In this document: positions 9,755 through 24,182 of the stretch, piece after piece
Layout: each line of letters opens with the position of its first letter
Position numbering within the stretch: the stretch's first letter is position 1
Assembly: GCA_017508105.1 (NCBI GenBank)
Contig: JAFVZP010000043.1
Coordinates: 1 to 33,608 of the forward strand
Reading direction: 5' to 3'
DNA length: 33,608 bases
DNA from: Clostridia bacterium
Lineage (GTDB): Bacteria > Bacillota > Clostridia > Christensenellales > Borkfalkiaceae
Notes under the pieces: generated by a model
The model's database searches: none
What the model was told of the DNA's origin: nothing
Seen by the model: the letters and a program-made list of their open reading frames with translations, nothing else
Translations under genes and position numbers: made by a program

Positions 9755-9785
9755 CGTTTTTGCCCGAATTATTCTATCAATTTAC
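9755..9785 (-). promoter_or_regulatory. SigF/SigG-like promoter candidate before dacF
   Basis: On the minus strand GTAAA (9781-9785) and GGCAAAAACG (9755-9764) are 16 bases apart. The first differs from GYATA at one base; the second fits the SigF -10 pattern GGNRANANTR except at one position. dacF is forespore-specific in B. subtilis, which makes the match more credible. It overlaps the end of spoIIM. Confidence 0.3.
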
Positions 9786-10387
9786 AAGATCAACGCAAAC
9801 GGCTTGAAAAAGATGAGAACCGTAAAAAATTCAAGGAGCGCGGAAAACAGACAAATTGTTCCGAAAAAGGCCAACCAAGGCAAAAATCCCCTCATATGCT
9901 CTAAAGAACGGGTTTGAAAGGTTGTCAACCCACATTCAAGGGAAAACGGTGTGGAAAATATTAAAATTCCGCCGCAAAGGATAGCTTGGGGTAAGAGCAA
10001 TAAAATTACGACGAAGAATCCGCCGACCGTATAATAGGCAAAGAGTATAAAAATCTCCACGCCGAAGATAAATCCCCGATAAAGAATTGCAAAAATTTGC
10101 AAGGGAAAGACAAAAATTACCGTGGACGACAGGCAAACAACGGCTAAAAACAGAGCGTTTCCAATGCAACGTGAAATAAGCACGGAAAAAATGCCCGACT
10201 CTAAAGAAAAGACTTTATACATATAATTTTCGCAATAACCGTGGCAAAACTGTATAATCAGCGTGGGTTTTATAATTATTATGCCACACATAGTACTTAT
10301 TAAAAATAATAAAAATAGTGTTAAAATCAATAATTTATAGTGAGAAATGCGGTTTTTACATTCGCCGAGAAAAAAAGAAAGGTTCAT
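9782..10387 (-). CDS. spoIIM: Stage II sporulation protein M
   Basis: SpoIIM is the membrane scaffold of the SpoIID-SpoIIP-SpoIIM peptidoglycan machine that drives engulfment of the forespore. The 201-residue protein has five to six hydrophobic segments: near residues 18-40, 65-90, 90-120, 120-145 and 165-200. This fits the SpoIIM/DUF95 layout, including the RGFIFGVEIFILFAYYTVGGF centre. spoIIM next to spoIVB and dacF agrees with clostridial gene order. SpoIID and SpoIIP are not in the window. The start ATG 10387 lies inside a hairpin, and no ribosome site precedes it. A SigE-like promoter ends 5 bases before the ATG. Confidence 0.85.
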   Translation of the reverse strand: MNLSFFLGECKNRISHYKLLILTLFLLFLISTMCGIIIIKPTLIIQFCHGYCENYMYKVFSLESGIFSVLISRCIGNALFLAVVCLSSTVIFVFPLQIFAILYRGFIFGVEIFILFAYYTVGGFFVVILLLLPQAILCGGILIFSTPFSLECGLTTFQTRSLEHMRGFLPWLAFFGTICLFSALLEFFTVLIFFKPFALIL

Positions 10388-19693: not shown

Positions 19694-20188
19694 TCAACTT
19701 TCTGAATAAACAGGCATAATAATTATATTTCCGGCGACGATTCCCGTTTCATTTTTGAGCATATTGTAAATTTGCAGCGCCGTATCGTAATTCAGCTCGG
19801 CTGAATTGATGAATACGTTGACGTTGTCCGATTCGGTGGAGAGCGAAACCACACAGTCCGAAAAGCCCAAGGATTTAATCATGGTTTCGAGGATGAGCTC
19901 CTGCTCCATTGCCGTTACGATTTCCAATTTCATACCGGCTGCCTCTTGGTACTCTTCACTGCCCTCCTCGTAGAGTGCAATGACCGAGTCGAGCTGTACG
20001 AGCTCTTCGTTTCTGGTGGTCGTGCGTTCGTTTCGGTAGGTGGTGAAGTAATTGGTGGTTACGCTGCCGCCCGCCGAAACCGAAGAGTCGGTTGCGCCCG
20101 CAAGCACAAAATTAAACACCGCCGTCACCGCCAAAAGCAACACCAAACCGCTCATAATAATAATTTTCTTCTTGTTTGTCATAACCAT
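19694..20188 (-). CDS. spoIIIAH: Stage III sporulation protein AH
   Basis: SpoIIIAH sits in the mother-cell membrane and pairs with forespore SpoIIQ to form the channel between the cells. The 164-residue protein has one N-terminal membrane segment (about residues 8-30, IIIMSGLVLLLAVTAVFNFVLA). Then come a helical stretch (NEELVQLDSVIALYEEGSEEYQEAAG) and the YscJ-like ring-building domain ending in LNYDTALQIYNMLKNETGI and NIIIMPV. It is shorter than the 218-residue Bacillus protein, mainly in the linker. AGGAGG stands 12 bases before ATG 20188. No spoIIQ is in the window; Clostridia often use another LytM-like partner. Confidence 0.9.
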   Translation of the reverse strand: MVMTNKKKIIIMSGLVLLLAVTAVFNFVLAGATDSSVSAGGSVTTNYFTTYRNERTTTRNEELVQLDSVIALYEEGSEEYQEAAGMKLEIVTAMEQELILETMIKSLGFSDCVVSLSTESDNVNVFINSAELNYDTALQIYNMLKNETGIVAGNIIIMPVYSES

Positions 20189-20227: not shown

Positions 20228-20599
20228 TTATTTGGTCATCTGGTAAATTGCCACGTCCTTTTGTGAAATGCCGAGCGCGCAGGAGGTCGCTTTCAATACG
20301 TCCATTCTCACGGACAGACGGTTTGCTCCCTCGAACACCAGCACGGCGCTCACAGCTTCGCCTTGGTTGTTTTGATTTATGTAGGCGTTGATTTTTCCCA
20401 CTCCCTCAATTTCGGAAAGAATTGAACAGAGCTTTACCTCCAATTGGCTCGCCCCCGTTTGCGTCTGCACGAATGCGTCCGTTGATGGGTTATTTTTATT
20501 TATAAAAATAAAATAAGAAAAAAAGAGAAGTAAAAGAGCAATCGCGCTCAACACAATTGTCTGTAAAAGACGTTTATCCTTGCGTATTTTCAGTTCCAT
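20228..20599 (-). CDS. spoIIIAG: Stage III sporulation protein AG, short form
   Basis: SpoIIIAG forms a ring in the mother-cell membrane of the A-Q complex. This copy has 123 residues, against about 229 in B. subtilis. Residues 1-12 are cytoplasmic, 13-33 a membrane helix, then a linker. A compact ring-building domain follows (about 48-123), with VKLCSILSEIEGVGKINAYI, a GEAVSAVLVFEGANRLSVRM strand and the helix MDVLKATSCALGISQKDV. The long insertion usually found between the IEGVGKVxV strand and the VVVxEGA strand is missing. AGGAGG stands 12 bases upstream of ATG 20599. The gene overlaps spoIIIAF by 26 bases. Both frames look intact, and I see no frameshift. Confidence 0.85.
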   Translation of the reverse strand: MELKIRKDKRLLQTIVLSAIALLLLFFSYFIFINKNNPSTDAFVQTQTGASQLEVKLCSILSEIEGVGKINAYINQNNQGEAVSAVLVFEGANRLSVRMDVLKATSCALGISQKDVAIYQMTK

Positions 20600-21032
20600 C
20601 GTAAACGGTTACCTCCTCGCAATCGCAAAGAATTTTAACGCTTTCGGCGATTTGGGTTATAATATTTATATGCTCGGATTTATCGTTCATTCCGAAATCG
20701 AGAATATAAATTTCCGTCCTTTGTATCTTGTCGTTTTGCATCTGTATTTCTGCTCGGGCGGTAACGCCGAACTGATTTTTAAGCTGTGTTTGTACGGCGA
20801 GGGAGTAACTGTTATTTATATACGCTATATCTTGTCCCAAAATGCTTGATTCAAAAGAAAAATTTGTCGTAGGCTGTTGTAAAAAATGTAAAATCGGGCT
20901 GACCAGCGTTAAAAGCATACATAATTTCAAAATTCCCCCCACCGTTTTGGCGTATTTTTTTTCATTGGTGAGAATGGCCGCAAGCGCCGTTACAATCGCC
21001 ATGCCGGCAACGGATAAAACGTAGGTTTTCAT
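20574..21032 (-). CDS. spoIIIAF: Stage III sporulation protein AF
   Basis: SpoIIIAF is part of the A-Q complex in the mother-cell membrane. From ATG 21032 it has 152 residues. Two membrane helices lie at the N terminus (YVLSVAGMAIVTALAAIL and GGILKLCMLLTLVSPILHFL), and a ring-building soluble domain follows, with the helix and VCD-like strand pattern ending KILCDCEEVTVYD. A longer reading from 21101 would overlap spoIIIAE and add an unlikely leader, so 21032 is chosen. It starts 2 bases after the spoIIIAE stop. Confidence 0.85.
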   Translation of the reverse strand: MKTYVLSVAGMAIVTALAAILTNEKKYAKTVGGILKLCMLLTLVSPILHFLQQPTTNFSFESSILGQDIAYINNSYSLAVQTQLKNQFGVTARAEIQMQNDKIQRTEIYILDFGMNDKSEHINIITQIAESVKILCDCEEVTVYDGTENTQG

Positions 21033-21034
21033 AC

Positions 21035-22255
21035 TCAAACAATAACTCCCGCCGAACAAATTAAGAGCAATACGGTTAAAAAATACAAAAACGCCATACA
21101 CAAAAGACAGGCAATCAGATAGCCCACCCCCTCGTTTACGTTGGTTAAAAAGGCGGAAATACGCTCGTCGCCGATGGGCTCGCAGACGGCGGCAGCCAAG
21201 CGCAAAGCAAGCGAAAAGCCAACCAGACAGACGAGCGGCTGTACGACGGTGGATGCGAGGATGAAAATACCCATGACACCGACCGAATTTTTAATGAGCG
21301 TACTGCCCGCAAGCACCAAATCGAACCCGTTGGAAATAAATCCGCCCACGATGGGTACGGAATTGGAAATGGCGTACTTCGCCGCTCTTAAAGAAATGCC
21401 GTCGTAGGTGGCGGCGGTCAGCCCCTGTACGGATAAAAAGATACCGAATACCGCAACACTCAACCCGATTGCCCATTTATTGACGCTCTTAAAGAGTGAA
21501 ATAAAGCCCTTTATTTGCACGTTTTTATGTAAATGCGAGAGTATATAAAGAACGATAACCACCAGGGTGAACGGCAGCACGAGTTGTGTTAAAATGCCGG
21601 CAACGCCCCCGCTTAAAAAGGCGACTGCGGGCTGATATACGGTTGCCGAAACCGTCCCCCCGCTCGCCGACATCAATGTCAAGAGTAAGGGAAAAATAAT
21701 CTCCATTTGCCTGCGTAGGGCGTTAAGCGTTTGAGAACACAGCTCGAAAACGCCGATGAGCTGAGAGAGTAAAACCACCAAAACGGCGGCGTAACAGACA
21801 AAAAATATAATTTCCGCCGTAGAATCCTTTAAAAAACCCGATTTTACGGTGTTTAAAATGCCGCATAAAAGCGCAATGGCACAAATGAGCGCAAAGGACG
21901 GCAGCATATCCTTGAGTGATTGTCCCAAAATGGAGAATAATGCGGAAAATATGCTCGTATATTCTATCCTTCCCCCGTCGATGAGCTCTAAAATTTTATC
22001 CTTGACGTTCCATGAGGAAAACTCCTGCAAGGACGAAAGATACTCTTGCAGTGCCCGGGTGTCCAGCTCGGTTAATAAGTTTTCAATGCTCTCTTTGAGT
22101 TGTTCTTCGCCCGTATTGGTCTGTGTCTGTTCGGGTTGAGCGTATACTGAAGTAAATTGGCAAAAAAGCGGAGAAAATACTGCAAAAAGAGATAAAATCA
22201 AGGCAAAAATTATTCTTTTGATGGGAATGAAGATAGTTTTGCGAGCGGATAACAT
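21035..22255 (-). CDS. spoIIIAE: Stage III sporulation protein AE
   Basis: SpoIIIAE is the large multi-span membrane protein of the A-Q complex. The 406 residues begin with a signal-like segment (IIFALILSLFAVFSPLF), then a helical extracellular part. About eight membrane helices follow from residue 110 to the end. The conserved family block SASGGTVSATVYQPAVAFLS and the GFISNGFDLVLAGSTLIKNSVG segment are present. The length agrees with the family (about 390-410). It lies within the AA-AH operon with 2 bases to spoIIIAD. Confidence 0.93.
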   Translation of the reverse strand: MLSARKTIFIPIKRIIFALILSLFAVFSPLFCQFTSVYAQPEQTQTNTGEEQLKESIENLLTELDTRALQEYLSSLQEFSSWNVKDKILELIDGGRIEYTSIFSALFSILGQSLKDMLPSFALICAIALLCGILNTVKSGFLKDSTAEIIFFVCYAAVLVVLLSQLIGVFELCSQTLNALRRQMEIIFPLLLTLMSASGGTVSATVYQPAVAFLSGGVAGILTQLVLPFTLVVIVLYILSHLHKNVQIKGFISLFKSVNKWAIGLSVAVFGIFLSVQGLTAATYDGISLRAAKYAISNSVPIVGGFISNGFDLVLAGSTLIKNSVGVMGIFILASTVVQPLVCLVGFSLALRLAAAVCEPIGDERISAFLTNVNEGVGYLIACLLCMAFLYFLTVLLLICSAGVIV

Positions 22256-22256
22256 A

Positions 22257-22649
22257 TCAGATTAGAGTTAGAAAATCGGTCAATAGCGACAAGAGCGAGC
22301 GAACGATGGGCAATGCAAGCGCCAAAATGGTGACTTTGCCGCATAACTCTACCTTTGACGCGAGCGACACGCTGCCAAAATCGCTCAACAGCTCGGCTGA
22401 AAATTCGGTTAAATACCCCACGCCGATGATTTTGAGTATAATTTTAATGACGGCGTTGTCAATTCCCGTCAAGGCGACCAGCTCGTTGAACAGCGTAAAG
22501 GTCGATTTTAGCAAGTCCAAGGCGGACAAAAGCAGGATAACGACGCCTGCCAACGCCGCCGCAAAAGCAAGCTCGGGCTTGACGTTTTTTAAAATGATGA
22601 CCGTCAGAGCGGAAACGATGGCAATGCCTATAATTTTAAATAATTGCAT
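22257..22649 (-). CDS. spoIIIAD: Stage III sporulation protein AD
   Basis: SpoIIIAD is a small membrane protein of the A-Q complex, related to SpoIIIAC. From ATG 22649 it has 130 residues, close to the family size, starting MQLFKIIGIAIVSALTVIILK as in its homologues. Helices lie at about 5-22, 28-48 and 95-125. A conserved IDNAVIKIILKIIGVGYLTEFSAELLSDFGS block carries the polar helix. A longer reading from 22715 would add 22 residues overlapping spoIIIAC. The ribosome site is weak (AAAAGAA). Confidence 0.9.
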   Translation of the reverse strand: MQLFKIIGIAIVSALTVIILKNVKPELAFAAALAGVVILLLSALDLLKSTFTLFNELVALTGIDNAVIKIILKIIGVGYLTEFSAELLSDFGSVSLASKVELCGKVTILALALPIVRSLLSLLTDFLTLI

Positions 22650-22668
22650 AAATTCTTTTAAAATTTGG

Positions 22669-22866
22669 TCAGTATAAGTCGAAAATTTGCTTGATTTCGG
22701 CAAATAAATCCCCAACCATACCGATAACGACGGTTAAAACGATGATCAGCCCCACCAGGCTGACCAGGGTCGCGATGTCCTCTCGGTCGGATTTTTTCAA
22801 AACTTGACACACGACGGTGATGATAATGCCCACGGCGGCGATTTTAAAAATGATTGAAATGTCCAT
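22669..22866 (-). CDS. spoIIIAC: Stage III sporulation protein AC
   Basis: SpoIIIAC is the smallest subunit of the A-Q complex. The 65 residues form two membrane helices (IIFKIAAVGIIITVVCQVL and LVSLVGLIIVLTVVIGMV) with the conserved KKSDREDIATL loop between. The length is typical (about 65-68). It stops 19 bases before spoIIIAD and follows spoIIIAB by 6 bases. Confidence 0.93.
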   Translation of the reverse strand: MDISIIFKIAAVGIIITVVCQVLKKSDREDIATLVSLVGLIIVLTVVIGMVGDLFAEIKQIFDLY

Positions 22867-22872
22867 TTTTTC

Positions 22873-23337
22873 TTAAATCAATAGAATGACGATAATCAAA
22901 CCCAATAAAAAGCCGAGTTTTACGTATAAATCCGTATATTTTACGGCGTTTTGCTCGCTTTTTAGTTTGTAATCGTTCAATTTTTTTGTATTGGCGTTAA
23001 AATATTCTCTTTGCGCCGTATAATCGCTCTTGCCCAAAAAGGAAAAGTATTCTTTTAAAAATTCATTCTCCTCTTTGCTCAGAAAATCAATGCTGTTTTC
23101 TATTTTATGATTGTTTCGGTATTCTTTTAAAAATCCCGAAAAATCTCCCTCATCTTCAAACCGCTTCAATACTTCGTCGAGCGGTCGGCGGGTGTATTCA
23201 ACTTCGGATAAGAAAAATTGATGAAATTTATCCCACGAAGCATAAAATTTTTTTGCAAGACGGTGCTTTCCGGCTAAAAAATATCCTAAATATGTTAGAA
23301 ATAGTACTATGCAAATATATAAAATATAGGCAATCAT
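22873..23337 (-). CDS. spoIIIAB: Stage III sporulation protein AB
   Basis: SpoIIIAB resembles GspF of type II secretion and acts as the membrane partner of the SpoIIIAA ATPase. The 154-residue protein has an N-terminal membrane helix (AYILYICIVLFLTYLGYFLA) and a helical soluble part. A C-terminal membrane helix (KLGFLLGLIIVILLI) ends the protein. The length fits the family (about 170). The start overlaps the stop of spoIIIAA by an ATGA junction. Confidence 0.88.
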   Translation of the reverse strand: MIAYILYICIVLFLTYLGYFLAGKHRLAKKFYASWDKFHQFFLSEVEYTRRPLDEVLKRFEDEGDFSGFLKEYRNNHKIENSIDFLSKEENEFLKEYFSFLGKSDYTAQREYFNANTKKLNDYKLKSEQNAVKYTDLYVKLGFLLGLIIVILLI

Positions 23338-24182
23338 AATAAATTCTGTCCGTTTTTATCATAAATTCCTGCGGCTTGTCCGATTTTTTGATTATCAAAC
23401 AGAATGTACCGTTGAAAGAATTTATACGGAAAGTCGGCTATCTCTCCCCCGTAATGCGCCGAAGCGATGACCGTCAAGCCTGCATCAATGGCTTGTTTTA
23501 CAGCGGCGTAGTCGTTTTCCTGCAATTCATCGGTGATAATGACGTCCGGGCGCAGCGAGCGCAAGCCAAAGGAAAAGGCATCCTTTTTGTTTGCATATTT
23601 CAATACGTCCGCATCGTTGACGTCGAAGCAGGAAATTTCTCCTCTTTCGTCCGCAATTAAGATGTTTTTTTGTGGATAATTTTCTCCGATGAGCCGTGCC
23701 AATTCCCGTAAAACGGTGGTTTTTCCGTATCCGGGGGCGGATAATAAAATACAGCTGCGCAATTGATCCTTTTCACAGGCATCGTATACCAAGTCAGCGC
23801 AGTGCAAAACGGGATGCGGAATGCGGATGCACAGCGAGGTTACGCTGCGCAAGGCCACTATTTTTTCCTTTTCTCGCACTAAAGTTCCCGCTAATCCCAA
23901 TCTCACACCCTTTTGTGTGGTCAAAAAACACTCCTTCATTTGTTCGGAGACCGAGTATACCGAATAACCGCTGGCGGCAAAAATGCAGTCCTCCAATTCG
24001 GCGTAGGTAATTTTAAGCGCTTGCTCCCGCCGTGCCACCACGCCGTTTTTGCCCAAATAGACGTATTGCCCGTCATAATTGATTTTTATGGGACGCTCGG
24101 CGCGTAGGCGAAGCTCATATAAACGGTGGATATTTACGTTTTGTATTGCGTTTTGAATAAAATGGGGTAAAAATTCCAACAT
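23334..24182 (-). CDS. spoIIIAA: Stage III sporulation protein AA (ATPase)
   Basis: SpoIIIAA is the AAA-type ATPase thought to power the A-Q channel, similar to type II and IV secretion ATPases. The 282-residue protein has Walker A SAPGYGKTTVLREL near residue 149, Walker B ILIADERGEIS near 178, and the later conserved DVIITDELQENDYAAV block. The length is normal (about 300). It is the first gene of the operon AA-AH, which runs to 19694 without a terminator. Upstream lies a SigE-like promoter candidate; an AGGA with 8 bases spacing is also present before ATG 24182. Confidence 0.95.
   Translation of the reverse strand: MLEFLPHFIQNAIQNVNIHRLYELRLRAERPIKINYDGQYVYLGKNGVVARREQALKITYAELEDCIFAASGYSVYSVSEQMKECFLTTQKGVRLGLAGTLVREKEKIVALRSVTSLCIRIPHPVLHCADLVYDACEKDQLRSCILLSAPGYGKTTVLRELARLIGENYPQKNILIADERGEISCFDVNDADVLKYANKKDAFSFGLRSLRPDVIITDELQENDYAAVKQAIDAGLTVIASAHYGGEIADFPYKFFQRYILFDNQKIGQAAGIYDKNGQNLL

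Follow-up and report, generated by a model that had tools for sequence, protein, structure and literature searches.

A short SpoIIIAG without the usual β insertion in a complete clostridial spoIIIA operon

The SpoIIIAG ring protein is thought to link the mother cell with the developing spore. In Bacillus subtilis, SpoIIIAG has about 229 residues and forms a 30-fold cup-and-saucer ring (PDB 5wc3). Few components of the complex that joins mother cell and forespore have been resolved to near-atomic detail; this 30-subunit ring is one of them, and the picture of the complex as a channel centers on its β-barrel cup. About 55 residues of β insertion make up most of that cup (PMC6934232). The window analyzed here, a stretch of 33,608 nucleotides, encodes a protein of only 123 residues in the place of SpoIIIAG (20228..20599, minus strand), in which a five-residue turn replaces the insertion. 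Is this a genuine SpoIIIAG, and what becomes of the ring? Our best reading is that the protein is a genuine SpoIIIAG which retains the ring-building module and lacks the cup.

The spoIIIA operon is complete on the minus strand of the window, running from spoIIIAA to spoIIIAH and followed by an Asp23 gene. Profile matches identify spoIIIAA (23334..24182; PF19568), spoIIIAB (22873..23337; PF09548), spoIIIAC and spoIIIAD (22669..22866 and 22257..22715; both PF06686), spoIIIAE (21035..22255; PF09546, 232.7 bits), and spoIIIAH (19694..20188, 164 residues; PF12685, 80.5 bits). The gene spoIIIAF (20574..21032), which encodes 152 residues from its likelier Met start, was assigned from its position, weak matches to PF09581 and TIGR02896, and an iterated profile that relates it to other SpoIIIAF proteins with an E value of 1e-31; its end overlaps the start of spoIIIAG by 26 bases. 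The 123-residue frame, which begins with ATG, is the syntenic seventh gene of the series, flanked by spoIIIAF and spoIIIAH, and the order AE-AF-AG-AH is kept in the 60 other loci fetched (SpoIIIAF went undetected in three of them).

The SpoIIIAG model TIGR02830 matches the window protein in two stretches (E = 9.2e-6, 25 bits). A profile built from 19 short relatives matches SpoIIIAG of PDB 5wc3 with an E value of 1.5e-11, one built from 10 long relatives does so with 5.9e-21, and when the short and long profiles are aligned with each other (hhalign), both halves of the domain align (99.7% probability, E = 6e-27). This alignment contains one large gap, which lies between the first two strands, 'IEGVGKINAYIN' and 'AVSAVLVFEGA'. 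Across 61 Clostridia, the consensus residues of the ring-building motif (RBM) columns are largely the same in short and long forms, with a mean entropy of 2.06 bits in the former and 1.91 in the latter.

We modeled the protein with AlphaFold from a two-sequence alignment (mean pLDDT 77.7, pTM 0.52, with mean pLDDT of about 84-91 in most domain blocks). In the model, a single long N-terminal helix (residues 3-36) includes the membrane span, at residues about 12-34 (20498..20566, minus strand; hydrophobic run LQTIVLSAIALLLLFFSYFIFIN). It is followed by one ring-building domain of αββαβ topology at residues 49-123 (20231..20455, minus strand), made up of helices 52-61 and 95-109 and strands 67-76, 82-91, and 116-120. 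The first two strands are connected by a turn at residues 77-81 (20357..20371, minus strand), at the site where the A1/A2 profile alignment places the gap. Superposed on residues 96-225 of 5wc3, 75 residues match with an rmsd of 2.3 Å (Z = 9.0, 20% identity), and the β insertion between RBM strands 1 and 2 that marks the 5wc3 type is absent. By profile, gene order, and fold, then, the window protein is orthologous to SpoIIIAG. The first-pass annotation had described a 123-residue SpoIIIAG with one membrane helix, a compact ring-building domain, and no β insertion, and the frame, the alignment gap, and the model all bear it out; the stretch between IEGVGK (64-69) and VLVFEGA (86-92), which it put at about 15 residues, counts 16.

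The αββαβ motif has been described for FliF, SctJ, and SpoIIIA proteins (PMC8092281). A closeness to secretion-system ring-building domains had also been proposed for the window protein, and indeed the RBMs of FliF and PrgK/EscJ fit it at least as well as SpoIIIAG of 5wc3 does: plain RBMs score Z values of 10.3 (6sd2), 10.0 (4oyc), and 9.8 (1yj7), where we take Z differences of less than 1 as ties. Like FliF RBM2 and the second RBM of SctJ (PrgK, EscJ), the domain is the plain motif. Unlike the FliF and SctJ proteins, which carry two or three RBMs and serve flagella or injectisomes, the 123-residue chain has a single RBM and one membrane helix and is encoded in a sporulation operon. FliF RBM3 carries a β-collar insert between strands 1 and 2, as long SpoIIIAG proteins do (PMC4768692, PMC8092281); the window protein, in contrast, is without any collar-forming segment.

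The distance between the glycines that flank the insertion site is bimodal across 60 loci, at 19-38 residues in short forms and 59-81 in long forms, with one locus at 46. That locus, L054, and genome G043 (both family f8) have an insertion of intermediate length, which may be a halfway state.

The window genome is a draft metagenome-assembled genome of 86 contigs (1.16 Mb, 96% complete), a state in which a sequencing or assembly error might hide the insertion. This possibility is negligible, because four independent genomes of the same genus (G001, G002, G003, and G004; 38-52% identity) have a SpoIIIAG of the same short form, in frame, and it is found in frame in other genera as well.

A second alternative is that the lineage is abandoning sporulation and that the short protein is left over from it, in decay and no longer building a ring. 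The small genome would fit this, as would the pace at which the gene changes: in a genus pair, SpoIIIAG is 52% identical, as against 85% for SpoIIIAH and 69% for SpoIIIAE, so that within the genus it evolves faster than these two and about as fast as SpoIIIAF. Some lineages do without SpoIIIAG altogether; in Planococcaceae it is reported missing as a whole gene (PMC7924749). The window resembles that case in having a simplified SpoIIIA complex but differs in that the insertion, not the gene, is lost. Against decay, spoIIIAG is under purifying selection within the genus (dN/dS of 0.19-0.26, from genus pairs whose synonymous sites are not saturated), frameshifts are absent, the short forms in five genera of the window's family keep the same spacing, and the RBM columns of short forms show roughly the conservation seen in long ones. 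Nor do the remaining sporulation genes point to decay, for the whole operon is retained together with SpoIVA, σG, Spo0A, and a SpoIIQ-like gene. We therefore regard a decaying remnant as improbable.

The sporulation genes were located as follows. SpoIVB and YtfJ are encoded in the window itself. Elsewhere in the window genome, σG lies beside σE and SpoIIGA, Spo0A is on another contig (C26), and contig 1 (L092, 542-1201) encodes a 219-residue protein with a transmembrane segment and an M23 domain, adjoining a DUF1779 (YwmB-like) gene; from that context, this SpoIIQ-like protein is a candidate for SpoIIQ, the forespore partner of the complex. SpoIVA was found in 53 of the 54 genomes tested, including all of those with a short SpoIIIAG. 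The retention of spoIIIA, SpoIVA, σG, Spo0A, and SpoIIQ-like genes makes up the gene set expected of a spore former, and by gene content the organism is a putative one. We also considered whether the whole pathway might be missing and rejected this, given the spoIIIA operon, SpoIVA, σG, Spo0A, and SpoIIGA. In B. subtilis, deletion of spoIIIAG lowers sporulation to 0.001-0.003% (PMC12720343).

Several smaller observations concern these genes. The SpoIIQ-like protein of L092 retains what looks like a zinc site made up of HxxxD and HLH, which resembles the intact LytM motif reported for SpoIIQ of Clostridioides difficile (PMC4982068). Downstream of spoIVB, at 9782-10387 on the minus strand, the window encodes a mostly hydrophobic protein of 201 residues without a Pfam or NCBIfam match, in a spot often occupied by spo0A in relatives. 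In raw counts, the GerM domain is absent from 20 of 26 genomes with a short SpoIIIAG and from 9 of 28 with a long one; phylogenetically independent pairs give no support to a link between the two, and we rejected it. Among the same 54 genomes, all those of family f1 lack the Germane (GerM) domain, as does a larger clade within the order, whether their SpoIIIAG is long or short.

How far does the short form extend? The first-pass annotation had treated it as a peculiarity of one lineage, a view that a survey of the window's order does not support. The survey covered 396 genomes, 340 of them with a SpoIIIAG match, and called a form short when it matched the short profile in one unbroken stretch of about 400 bases or less with an E value of 3e-20 or better. 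By this measure at least 105 of the 340 are short, a lower bound because weaker matches of the same type follow. Within family f1 alone, 34 of the 38 matched genomes have the short form and four the long one. It is present in at least eight other clostridial families, and yet outside the window's order it is rare in Clostridia (at least 9 of about 264; contiguous matches in G769, G601, G456, G772, G781, G630, G431, and G751, with G427 intermediate). The annotation had also held that finding many equally short clostridial proteins would count against its reading; such proteins are indeed numerous within the order but not elsewhere in the class. At class level, the short profile matches most SpoIIIAG genes in two separate pieces, in open frames of about 160-230 residues, and among the matches listed for other classes of the phylum, matches are partial or split and nearly all frames encode about 180-250 residues. 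The passages on SpoIIIAG that we consulted hold no mention of a short form, and an earlier mention may exist.

Two observations accompany the survey. In another class of the phylum, genome G953 (contig 64, 533-850) carries a possible short-form SpoIIIAG in an open frame of 148. Within the order, 56 of the 396 genomes gave no SpoIIIAG match, namely G065, G086, and G103 (genus g47 of family f30) and about 50 more; some of these assemblies are complete and consist of a single contig.

To place these states on a phylogeny, we used a tree of SpoIIIAE and SpoIIIAH from 61 Clostridia, leaving SpoIIIAG out. It contains 14 changes between short and long, at least 11 of them forced by well-supported branches, in a tree of which many deep branches are weak and some rows long. 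The sample deliberately included known short forms, which makes them look more common but cannot by itself produce independent origins. Families f1, f10, f24, and f75 each hold both states, and a short clade of f1 (support 100/100) is sister to the long f1 genera g6 and g13.

The number of changes is independent of the root and does not give their direction, so that it fits gain and loss of the insertion alike. A plain RBM could accordingly be the ancestral SpoIIIAG, the insertion having been gained later, and SctJ and SpoIIIAH do have plain RBMs. This history is nevertheless very improbable. In other clostridial orders SpoIIIAG is as a rule long, and so it is, among the matches listed, in other classes of the phylum; short forms are nested within the four mixed families; and the insert of FliF RBM3 sits at the corresponding point (PMC4768692). 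Repeated gain is further disfavored because long forms share sequence at the ends of the insertion, where an invariant P is followed by an I.GV run (alignment A2). Loss is favored by the prevalence of the long form in the class and phylum and by the equivalent place of the FliF RBM3 insert; most likely, then, the insertion is ancestral and has been lost repeatedly, and we infer that the changes are mostly losses.

SpoIIIAH did not shorten along with SpoIIIAG. The first-pass annotation had called SpoIIIAH short like its neighbor; its 164 residues stand, but a common reason does not, because SpoIIIAH has 154-163 residues in relatives with a long SpoIIIAG (L044, L045, L068, L070, and L071) and its length is therefore unlinked to the deletion. 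Compensation by a longer SpoIIIAF or SpoIIIAH was considered separately and rejected, as neither protein shows a consistent change in length with the shortening of SpoIIIAG.

We consider it probable that the window protein is a bona fide SpoIIIAG orthologue in which the β insertion has been lost and whose bare RBM most likely still assembles into a saucer without a cup. Its one helix would anchor the protein in the membrane with which the mother cell surrounds the forespore. There, bare RBMs would most likely assemble side by side, like those in the FliF RBM2 and PrgK rings, and the resulting ring would give the SpoIIIA-SpoIIQ complex its "saucer" but no β-barrel "cup," in a complex that would still work. 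Ring formation by the short protein, as well as the pore size and symmetry of such a ring, is something that we infer, and the different pore or assembly proposed in the first-pass annotation is a conjecture. Alternatively, the short SpoIIIAG might form no ring of its own and instead join SpoIIIAF and SpoIIIAH as one RBM subunit of a mixed ring or stack. All three are RBM proteins (PMC8092281), and a SpoIIIAG without its insertion resembles any plain RBM; even so, the lengths of SpoIIIAF and SpoIIIAH do not change as SpoIIIAG shortens, and we hold a mixed assembly to be a serious but unlikely alternative to a ring of SpoIIIAG itself.

Since clostridial SpoIIIAG has been simplified in this way many times over, the machine can probably do without the cup. 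It is possible, and we suggest it only tentatively, that the SpoIIIA-SpoIIQ complex works in whole clostridial families without the SpoIIIAG β-barrel cup, in which case the cup is not an obligatory wall of the conduit. Were this true, the conserved role of SpoIIIAG would be that of a flat RBM platform, which would speak against one sealed "feeding tube" with the SpoIIIAG barrel as its basis, and a complex working in bacteria with a short SpoIIIAG would mean that the cup is no universal need. The many natural losses also offer material for gene swapping that could ask whether the cup is needed.

The short form also bears on annotation. Short SpoIIIAG proteins score 22-60 bits against TIGR02830, whose curated cutoff is 147.7, and are likely called hypothetical proteins. 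Two long clostridial proteins (L043 and L078) likewise fall below the cutoff, at 101 and 139 bits; as even long forms miss it, annotation can be expected to under-call spoIIIAG. This gene is among the 16 used by the spore-former predictor SpoMAG (PMC12536801), and sporulation may therefore be under-called in Clostridia whose SpoIIIAG is short.
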